From the NCBI RefSeq assembly GCF_000718775.1, contig NZ_JOCB01000001.1, positions 1-64,000 of the forward strand: a stretch of DNA of 64,000 nt, read 5' to 3'. How positions within the stretch are numbered: position 1 is the first letter of the stretch; every line of letters starts with the position of its first letter. Shown here in pieces: positions 41,582 to 43,743 of this stretch. The notes under the pieces are model-generated. The model saw only the letters and a program-made list of their open reading frames with translations. It ran no database searches and had not been told where the DNA came from. Source of the stretch: Streptomyces sp. NRRL S-31. Lineage in GTDB: Bacteria; Actinomycetota; Actinomycetes; Streptomycetales; Streptomycetaceae. The translations under genes and the position numbers were made by a program.

Positions 41582-42442
41582 TCAGGAGAGTTGCAGCAGA
41601 CCGCGGAGCAGGTCCCGGCTCTCGTCCGGACCGGGGCTGTCCTGCTGGAGCTCCTTCAGGGCGTGTTCGTACTGGGCGACGTCCTCCCGCTTGTCCAGGT
41701 AGAGGGCGCTGGTCAGCTGCTCCAGGTAGACCACGTCGGACAGGTCGGACTCGGGGAAGCTGAGGATGGTGAAGGCGCCGCTCTCGCCGGAGTGCCCGCC
41801 GAGGCCGAACGGCATGACCTGGAGCCGTACGTTGGGCCGCTCGGAGACGTCGATCAGGTGCTGGAGCTGGCCGCGCATCACCTCGCGGTCTCCGTAGGGG
41901 CGGCGCAGGGCGGCCTCGTCCAGCACGATGTGGAACTCGGGGGCGTTCTCCGCCAGCAGGTGCTTCTGCCGCTCCAGGCGCAGGGCGACCCGCCGCTCGA
42001 CGTCGGCGGTGCTCGCGCCCTTCATGCCGCGCCGGACCACCGCGCGGGCGTAGTCCCCGGTCTGGAGCAGGCCGTGCACGAACTGCACCTCGTAGACGCG
42101 GATCAGCGAGGCGGCGCCCTCCAGGCCCACATAGGTGGGGAACCAGCTGGGCAGCACGTCCGTGTAGCTGTGCCACCAGCCCGCCACATTGGCCTCCCGG
42201 GCGAGGGAGAGCAGCGACTCGCGCTCCGCCTCGTCGGTGATGCCGTAGAGCGTCAGCAGGTCTTCCACGTCCCTCGTCTTGAAGCTCACCCGGCCCAGCT
42301 CCATCCGGCTGATCTTCGACTCGGAGGCGCGGATCGAGTAACCCGCAGCTTCGCGCGTGATGCCCCGCGCCTCCCGCAGTCGCCTGAGTTGCGAGCCGAG
42401 CAGCATCCGCCGCACCACCGATCCGGGCTCTCCCGCGCTCAC
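41582..42442 (-). CDS. XRE-family regulator with DUF5753 domain
   Basis: 286 residues, GTG with GGGGAGG 9 bases upstream. The N-terminal HTH_XRE is LRRLREARGITREAAGYSIR with SESKISRMELGRVSFKTRD. DUF5753 fills the rest (LIRVYEVQFVHGLLQTGDYA; ERRVALRLERQKHLL; FHIVLDEAALRRPYG). This family is greatly expanded in Streptomyces and commonly paired with DUF397 proteins, some pairs controlling development and antibiotics. Here an RsbW-like ATPase and a DUF397 gene complete the set. Confidence 0.95.
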   Translation of the reverse strand: MSAGEPGSVVRRMLLGSQLRRLREARGITREAAGYSIRASESKISRMELGRVSFKTRDVEDLLTLYGITDEAERESLLSLAREANVAGWWHSYTDVLPSWFPTYVGLEGAASLIRVYEVQFVHGLLQTGDYARAVVRRGMKGASTADVERRVALRLERQKHLLAENAPEFHIVLDEAALRRPYGDREVMRGQLQHLIDVSERPNVRLQVMPFGLGGHSGESGAFTILSFPESDLSDVVYLEQLTSALYLDKREDVAQYEHALKELQQDSPGPDESRDLLRGLLQLS

Positions 42443-42649
42443 GTTCGCCAGCCTCCCCAACCGTCTTCAGGGCCCGAAGTCTGCCACTAAAACACTCCGA
42501 GCAGTACTCGCCCGGTTACGGAAACGGAAAGACCTCGGCCGTTTCCGAGGGGCCCGGAAGGGGAAGAGGTCGGGACCTCTGACGGCCGATCGCGGCGAAG
42601 ATGGCAGAAAAAATGGCCAAGAAGCGGTACGGGCAGTGCCATTTCGGTC
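42443..42649. promoter_or_regulatory. XRE/ATPase divergent upstream region with inverted repeat
   Basis: Between the leftward XRE gene and the rightward ATPase gene. It holds a perfect 9-bp inverted repeat CGGAAACGG (42519-42527) and CCGTTTCCG (42539-42547) with an 11-base spacer, and a local AT-rich patch CACTAAAACACT at about 42485-42496. An open frame from 42601 reads into the ATPase but has no ribosome binding site and is taken as leader. Confidence 0.45.
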
Positions 42650-42679
42650 GCGTGCACGTGCATCTGCCCTTGCATCTGC
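42650..42679 (-). promoter_or_regulatory. 30-bp conserved element, copy 1 (upstream of the ATPase gene)
   Basis: Read on the minus strand, the element begins GCAGATGCAAGGGCAG and ends ATGCACGTGCACGC. It matches a copy upstream of the DUF397 gene at 25 of 30 positions. Core features are two GATGCA-type half-sites and the palindrome GTGCACGTGCAT. It lies 74 bases before the ATPase start, and both copies point in the same direction relative to their gene. Likely operator of the local XRE regulator. Confidence 0.7.
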
Positions 42680-42753
42680 TGTGCGCATCCGAAACCATGG
42701 GTGCCGCGCCACCGCTGCATCGCAACGACCGCGAATTCCCGGGAGTGCCTCGC

Positions 42754-43251
42754 ATGGGGACGAATGGATCGACCATGCTCAAGCCGTTACGGCAGGGCCT
42801 TCCGCCGCTGGATCCCGCGGCCGTGTCCGATGCCGTCTCCTGCGCTCTCCCCGCCCGTCACGAAGCGGTGCGCGAGGCCCGGCGCTTCACCCGCGACACG
42901 CTGGAGAAATGGGGCGTCGAAGAGCGCTCCGACGATGTGTGTCTGGTCGTCTCGGAACTCGTCACCAACGCCCTGCGCCACGCGGTGCCGGTGAACCCGT
43001 GCCGCACCGACGAGCACCACCCGACCGTGCGGCTGCACCTGATGCGGTGGACCGAGCGGCTGGTGTGCGCGGTGCGCGATCCGAGCCACGAGTCACCGGT
43101 GCCACGGGAGACGGACGACTTCTCCGCCGAGTCCGGCCGCGGGCTGTTCCTGGTCGAATCCTTCGCCGACAGCTGGGGCTGGCACCCGCTCGCGGGCACG
43201 CTGGAGGGCAAGGTCGTCTGGGCGCTGTTCCGGCTGCGCCCGGCCGGCTGA
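42754..43251 (+). CDS. RsbW/SpoIIAB-like ATP-binding protein (HATPase_c)
   Basis: 165 residues from the ATG with GGGAG 8 bases upstream. GHKL ATPase fold: ARRFTRDTLEKWGVEERSDD, N box CLVVSELVTNALRHAVP, and G boxes AVRDPSHESPVP and ESGRGLFLVESFADSWGW. Members act as anti-sigma factors or partner kinases of the RsbW type. In Streptomyces many lie beside XRE-DUF5753 and DUF397 genes, as here. Partner and substrate unknown. A longer frame from 42601 lacks a ribosome binding site. Confidence 0.9.
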   Translation: MGTNGSTMLKPLRQGLPPLDPAAVSDAVSCALPARHEAVREARRFTRDTLEKWGVEERSDDVCLVVSELVTNALRHAVPVNPCRTDEHHPTVRLHLMRWTERLVCAVRDPSHESPVPRETDDFSAESGRGLFLVESFADSWGWHPLAGTLEGKVVWALFRLRPAG

Positions 43252-43333
43252 TCCGGTGCGGCGCCTGCGGACGCCCCGGTTCTACGCGCGTCACACGAGG
43301 GACGTCACCGGGCGCCCGCCCGACATCGTTGCC

Positions 43334-43363
43334 ACCGCCCGGGACGGCCTCCGGCCGGGCGGT
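43334..43363. terminator. Convergent terminator between ATPase and DUF397 genes
   Basis: ACCGCCCGG (43334-43342), 12-base loop, CCGGGCGGT (43355-43363): a perfect 9-bp stem ending on the first base of the DUF397 stop codon. Confidence 0.55.
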
Positions 43364-43632
43364 CAGCTCGCGATCAGATGGTCGAACTCGCCGTCCTTGA
43401 CGCCGAGCAGCATCGCCTCGATCTCCGCGCGCGTATAGACGAGGGCCGGGCCGTCCGGGAAACGCGAATTGCGCACGGCCACCTCACCGCCCGGCAAACG
43501 AGCGAACTCCACGCAGGAGCCCTGCGAATTGCTGTGCCGGCTCTTCTGCCAGGCCACTCCGTCCAGCTGCGTGGCAGCCATGCCGTTGTACACGTCGTAC
43601 CCCCCGAACACGCCGTCAGCGTCGCGGTCCAC
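43363..43632 (-). CDS. DUF397 domain protein
   Basis: 89 residues, GTG with GGGGAG 6 bases upstream. The DUF397 core is WQKSRHSNSQGSCVEFARLP, then VAVRNSRFPDGPALVYTRAE and a C-terminal helix; a 25-residue leader precedes it. DUF397 proteins are small partners of XRE-DUF5753 regulators and have been proposed to act with them in toxin-antitoxin-like or regulatory pairs. Convergent with the ATPase gene. Its promoter carries the second copy of the 30-bp element. Confidence 0.95.
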   Translation of the reverse strand: MDRDADGVFGGYDVYNGMAATQLDGVAWQKSRHSNSQGSCVEFARLPGGEVAVRNSRFPDGPALVYTRAEIEAMLLGVKDGEFDHLIAS

Positions 43633-43694
43633 AGGTCGCTCCCCGGTGGTGCACTGGCTGGTGTGGCCATAGATGCATTGGTCAACTGACCCGG

Positions 43695-43743
43695 ATCATA
43701 ACTCTGTTCACTTGCGGATGCATGAGCAAATGCACGTGCACGA
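43695..43743 (-). promoter_or_regulatory. DUF397 promoter with 30-bp conserved element, copy 2
   Basis: The element (43714-43743, plus strand) begins GCGGATGCATGAGCAA and ends ATGCACGTGCACGA. On the minus strand a good -10, TATGAT (plus 43695-43700), is 17 bp from a weak -35 ATGCAT (43718-43723) that lies inside the element. The weak -35 under a conserved site suggests activation by a bound regulator. The element is 81 bases upstream of the GTG. Confidence 0.7.

Follow-up and report, generated by a model that had tools for sequence, protein, structure and literature searches.

Which protein reads a 30-nucleotide (nt) element that stands before two neighboring genes of Streptomyces sp. NRRL S-31, and does it activate or repress them? 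The element occurs in a 64,000-nt stretch (contig NZ_JOCB01000001.1, positions 1 to 64,000; the window) as copy 1 at 42650..42679 on the minus strand, upstream of an anti-sigma-like ATPase gene, and as copy 2 at 43714..43743 on the plus strand, upstream of a DUF397 gene; both genes neighbor a gene for an XRE-DUF5753 protein. As an initial annotation of the sequence had noted, the copies are identical at 25 of 30 positions and oriented alike relative to their genes; 74 nt separate copy 1 from the ATG of the ATPase gene, and 81 nt separate copy 2 from the GTG of the DUF397 gene. Read toward the gene, each copy consists of the palindrome TGCACGTGCA (the core; 42653-42662 in copy 1, 43731-43740 in copy 2), 7 nt, and a half-site, which is TTGCAT in copy 1 (42670-42675, read on the plus strand toward the ATPase gene) and ATGCAT in copy 2 (43718-43723, read on the minus strand toward the DUF397 gene). 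We propose that both copies are operators of the adjacent XRE-DUF5753 protein. The pair is real and deeply conserved, its site architecture is distinct, and its reader is most likely this XRE; for the full explanation, covering the operators as well as the sign of regulation, we estimate a probability of about 0.6. This estimate is lower than our confidence in the binder, given below, because it includes the sign and because the -10 hexamer of the ATPase gene is uncertain.

Comparison of the two upstream regions gave 25 as the highest score over 30 nt, and first-order Markov shuffles (n = 2000) reached 23 at most. When the pattern GATGCA-N7-ATGCACGTGCAC was searched in the window at up to 3 mismatches, 2 matches were found, both exact, compared with a mean of 0.06 in shuffled sequences, where 1 of 100 shuffles gave 2. 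Extending the search to the 8.7-Mb genome, as the annotation had suggested, returned only the two exact copies below 3 mismatches of this 18-base pattern. At up to 3 mismatches the genome held 4 + 5 matches, the pair included, versus 3 + 4 for a reversed control, and we rejected a wider regulon in this genome since the remaining sites at 3 mismatches did not exceed that control. The core alone was likewise rejected as a regulon marker (20 genome sites versus 24 for a control).

The comparison of homologous loci, also suggested by the annotation, confirmed that the element is conserved before the same genes. In the window and 80 named orthologue loci of Streptomyces, the order DUF397/ATPase/XRE was kept in 81/81 loci, as were the strands, and alignments of both upstream regions contained conservation blocks. 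When as many as 3 mismatches were allowed, 80/80 named loci showed copy 2 and 74/80 showed copy 1 (not seen in L049, L050, L060, L061, L082, and L084). The exact core was found at copy 2 in 81/81 loci and, applying a distance rule, at copy 1 in 80/81; the one locus that failed it, L083, contains a run of N, and its copy is visible in the search that tolerated 3 mismatches. From one core to the other, the distance in the Streptomyces loci ranges over 963-1368 nt, with a median of 1077. Genome-wide, 292 of 295 Streptomyces genomes, our own included, carry a full-element match at no more than 1 mismatch, with exactly one copy per strand in 222 (hand count) and just one copy in most others; a reversed control gave 4 matches in total across the 295 genomes (hand count). 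Two of the three genomes without a match, G186 and G292, retain two exact cores beside the partner genes, and in the third, G001 (79% complete), no XRE match at 1e-80 was found. That the copies match by chance, or that one upstream region was recently duplicated, might be suspected from the imperfect 25/30 identity and from the lack of enrichment of the core in the genome. The shuffles argue against such an origin, and it is already contradicted by the conservation of both copies in the genus and of the core beyond it; we give it next to no credence.

We also considered whether copy 1 might be a coding part of a longer ATPase, in a 216-amino acid open reading frame (ORF) at 42601-43251, and rejected this since the ORF breaks in related species. 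Counted from its ATG, the stretch is 212 nt long in 54 of the 81 loci and 213 nt long in the window and in 10 more, and in 10 of the 81 the extension contains stops in frame with the ATPase. Because the frame is not conserved, copy 1 is taken as non-coding. Upstream of it, at 42600-42640 (plus strand), a block around AGAAAAAATGGCCAA(C/G)AAGCGGTACGGG is strongly conserved in the 81 loci.

The association of the core with a particular kind of XRE became apparent beyond the genus. A search of 148 genomes of the class gave an XRE match at 1e-60 in 39, ten of them being the orthologues from the window's genus that head the list and G088. In a first set, we compared 80 XRE loci, taken with 3 kb on either side if the contig was long enough (L221, L253, and L279 come from G088, a divergent genome of the same genus), according to whether the XRE has an SK[IM]SR-ELG-type helix and whether a partner, meaning a recognizable ATPase or DUF397 neighbor, is present. 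The exact core was found in 39 of the 44 loci with this helix and a partner gene, in 2 of 19 with this helix where no partner was recognized, and in none of 17 other-helix loci, 14 of them with a partner gene. It was also absent from the 1.5-kb flanks, shorter than those of the first set, of all 19 alignable DUF5753 loci that the genome contains besides the window's (L134 and L139 overlap and represent the same gene), and from four closer XRE paralogues of other Streptomyces (L400-L403, 57-61% identical), which have both partner genes. As controls, 59 other palindromes that can be built with the letters of the half-site reached at most 9 of 80 first-set loci, and TGCACGTGCA ranked first among all 1024 palindromic 10-mers (41/80), the next being CGCCCGGGCG (all G+C) with 27. 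As a held-out set, 55 further loci, all belonging to other genera of the family, were scored by the same rule; the core was present in 49/49 loci with helix and partner, 0/4 with the helix but no partner, and 0/2 others; the best control palindrome reached 10/55. The first set contains 50 exact cores, and for 43 of them a partner gene starts no more than 700 nt downstream (21 ATPase, 22 DUF397), and cores precede both genes despite a different gene order in L220, L256, L265, L330-L332, and L346.

Since the exact core goes with this helix type and a partner gene, and is absent near other-helix XREs and paralogues, we consider the neighboring XRE very likely to bind both elements. The same co-conservation, together with retention across the genus, strongly supports that part of the initial annotation in which the XRE, ATPase, and DUF397 genes form one small regulon read by the XRE. 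Several observations weigh against this assignment. The helix classes of the first set were defined post hoc, after the loci had been seen; the rule for the held-out set was fixed beforehand. One held-out locus, L376, was scored as "other" by the rule and by eye has the helix and partners, yet carries TGCAAGTGCA and TGCATCTGCA instead of the core; including it as a linked helix locus gives a stricter count of 49/50. The exact core is missing from the linked first-set loci L206, L249, L253, L255, and L280, and 7 of the 50 first-set cores have no recognized partner start downstream. Helix type and locus lineage are, moreover, confounded, leaving room for some other lineage-tied factor. Another transcription factor or a nucleoid protein might thus read the element, with the XRE a mere neighbor, given that XRE binding is deduced from co-conservation. 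Such a reader would have to account for the absence of the core near the 14 other-helix XREs with the same partners and near both groups of paralogues, for its presence in all 49 held-out loci that the rule scored as having helix and partner, and for the lack of any further full element in the genome below 3 mismatches, and we regard it as improbable.

Copy 1 lies ~200 nt from the XRE start in Streptomyces, a further point on the unfavorable side, and autoregulation of the XRE gene is therefore not obvious there. Among the loci from other genera of the family (several of L322-L369), many have one or two cores between the ATPase and XRE genes, and one core is often ~105-175 nt before the start of the XRE match, perhaps reflecting autoregulation.

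As for the sign of regulation, the initial annotation had proposed that the XRE activates both partners and had pointed to a DUF397 promoter whose -35 hexamer the element covers. The hexamers of this predicted promoter are found as described (43695..43723, minus strand): a poor -35 hexamer inside the element, ATGCAT (43723-43718), is separated by 17 base pairs (bp) from TATGAT (43700-43695), and the hexamers are kept at these offsets in 49 and 68 of 81 loci, respectively. The predicted ATPase promoter (42670..42698, plus strand) pairs TTGCAT, inside the element, with AACCAT (42693-42698) at 17 bp, and a rival -10 hexamer, CATGG(T/G), lies 3 bases later; among 80 loci, TTGCAT is kept in 74, AACCAT in 70, and CATGGT in 66. 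We consider the DUF397 -10 fairly clear and the ATPase -10 uncertain. With the 17-bp choice at both promoters (AACCAT and TATGAT), the unit of palindrome and half-site would extend from about -52 to -30, with its center at about -41, and a center near -41 is the position bound by class II activators. Both Streptomyces sites reach the -35 position, a geometry that allows class II activation.

Based on these features, we suggest that the XRE, probably as a dimer or a pair of dimers, binds TGCACGTGCA plus the half-site TTGCA(T)/ATGCA(T) 7 nt nearer the gene, and that a protein bound to a unit ending at the -35 position could contact RNA polymerase. The promoter of the ATPase (AbaA-like) gene, with its weak -10, would most likely be activated in this way, and the DUF397 promoter would be controlled by the XRE within the same circuit. 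By analogy with published WhiJ/BldB work, the DUF397 protein may feed back on the XRE, and a TTA (bldA) codon in the ATPase gene would further gate its output. Activation of the ATPase gene is ranked first, at moderate odds, and the sign at the DUF397 gene is left undecided.

The annotation's claim of joint activation is thus retained only in part, since the ATPase -10 is uncertain and DUF397 sites elsewhere fit repression. At the Streptomyces ATPase gene, CATGGT (66/80) is the sole [TC]ANNNT hexamer at a fixed place, and its 20-bp distance from TTGCAT is too great for an ordinary -35/-10 pair; AACCAT (70/80) is in register with TTGCAT yet poor as a -10. Outside Streptomyces, where -10 positions were assigned from hexamer offsets and by eye and show large scatter, the site before DUF397 covers the spacer in L202-L205, L208, and L209 (with TATCGT 14-19 nt past the core), and in L216, L218, L220, and L256 it is found downstream of the -10-like TATCAT/TATCCT. 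These placements fit repression: a repressor could act from either of them and also from the -35 place seen in Streptomyces, and an activator easily works only from the -35 place. The same XRE might instead repress both genes by covering their promoters, with relief by the DUF397 protein as proposed for WhiJ and SCO4542, and the overlap of the Streptomyces sites with the -35 would also suit this scheme. Against it, each of the two promoters in Streptomyces combines its -10 with a degenerate -35 that falls inside the element, a pairing often seen in activated promoters, and a core, a TTGCA half-site, and a -10-like hexamer ~30-38 nt past the core recur at the ATPase genes of several other groups (partly by eye). 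The published record points both ways: the WhiJ model is one of repression lifted by the DUF397 partner (PMC4255298), whereas activation of iosA is described as requiring WhiJ9 (PMC10294661). We judge repression of both genes to be unlikely, albeit a serious competitor, and continue to favor the XRE as an activator of at least the ATPase gene.

The three genes of the locus have the composition of a WhiJ-like neighborhood, with DUF397 (BldB-like) and HATPase (AbaA-like) genes neighboring the XRE gene. The XRE-DUF5753 (WhiJ-like) gene (41582..42460, minus strand) encodes a protein that scores 57.7 bits for HTH_31 (cut-off 27) and 203 bits for Pfam DUF5753 (cut-off 23.4); its start is listed as TTG, and a GTG 6 codons inside is equally plausible. 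The HATPase_c_2 gene (42754..43251, plus strand, with the ATG at 42754) was labeled RsbW-like by the initial annotation, a label that holds for the ATPase domain (Pfam HATPase_c_2, 57.5 bits) but not for the curated family, the protein reaching 39.6 bits with the NCBIfam RsbA model versus a cut-off of 210 and the RsbW model not being listed. Its codon 12 is TTA in 78 of 81 loci, and no TTA codons were seen in the aligned parts of the XRE and DUF397 genes in these loci. The DUF397 gene (43363..43632, minus strand, with the GTG at 43632) encodes a BldB-like protein of the SCO3424 type (Pfam DUF397, 68.4 bits).

The link to SCO3424 comes from the published sigma-E promoter of sco3424 (PMC6767563), which is matched at 28 of 29 positions upstream of the DUF397 gene in the orthologue loci L034 and L056, and not in the window. 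Because of these matches, we take the window locus as the counterpart of the S. coelicolor SCO3421-SCO3424 cluster, which is described as likewise having a TTA codon in the anti-sigma-like gene next to the XRE gene (PMC4255298; PMC10771440). The promoter matches, at L034:1738-1766 and L056:1694-1722, are upstream of copy 2, and in those two loci the DUF397 gene may receive input from envelope stress. We found no operator or target of the SCO3421 cluster in the literature searched, which covered few subscription papers, and no match to the core as text that concerned a bacterial operator, judged from titles and abstract openings. SCO1979, an XRE-DUF5753 protein described as binding upstream of its own gene (Zhu et al. 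2020, cited in PMC12565409), was rejected as the counterpart: the window XRE scores 386.9 with the corresponding model (NCBIfam NF058600, cut-off 350), and the L121 protein of the same genome scores higher (463.9) and corresponds better to SCO1979; SCO3421 is preferred for the window XRE. The L121 XRE also differs from the window XRE in its helix, and the core is absent from its locus. A study of 14 putative toxins of S. coelicolor, which are DUF397 proteins, reported no clear toxic effect, and SCO3424 is absent from its table of toxin-antitoxin pairs (PMC10364602).

The closest functional precedent is WhiJ9 of the S. venezuelae iosA-whiJ9-bldB9 locus, which binds repeats beside its own gene and is needed for iosA activation; autorepression is suggested by RNA-seq, and WhiJ9 thus appears to be both an activator of its neighbor and a repressor of itself (PMC10294661). 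Like that locus, the window has a WhiJ-type XRE gene beside a BldB-type gene. Unlike the WhiJ9 repeats as published, the site in the window is a palindrome plus half-site that occurs once at each of the two partner promoters and reaches the -35 position. The WhiJ9 operator type, two CGXXCTCAAC direct repeats 0-6 nt apart, had 0 matches in our genome (G000). Another locus, L377, is likely of the WhiJ9 type: three contiguous repeats of GTTGAGNNCG with a 10-bp period (L377:2142-2171) end 14 nt before the XRE-DUF5753 ORF. These repeats fit the WhiJ9 repeat as published, a different site with a different helix from that of the window XRE.

More generally, WhiJ/AbaA/BldB loci might run private cis-trans codes, with an operator for each XRE lineage that stands at the partner promoters and is absent from sister loci in the same cell. 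For the SCO3421 lineage, TGCACGTGCA and its half-site would act from a class II site to drive an AbaA-like output gated by bldA, and the DUF397 promoter would be activated or repressed depending on the family. We offer this generalization tentatively, as a possibility with the odds somewhat against it. If it is true, the XRE helix would predict the operator of every paralogue. The genus-wide two-site operator provides concrete candidate targets and a testable binding site for the cluster, and comparing the paralogues could show whether private sites keep the many similar regulators of a cell apart. One group of XREs without the core has a MENGR/LENGR helix (L262, L264, L267, L268, L269, L273, L275, L276, L278, and L281). 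Upstream of their XRE genes, 8-mers of TTCGCCACTC (either strand) occur in at most 6 of 10 regions, as do, counted in the same way, those of the motif candidate TCGCCACTC or its reverse complement; we note these as a lead to a possible private motif of this group.
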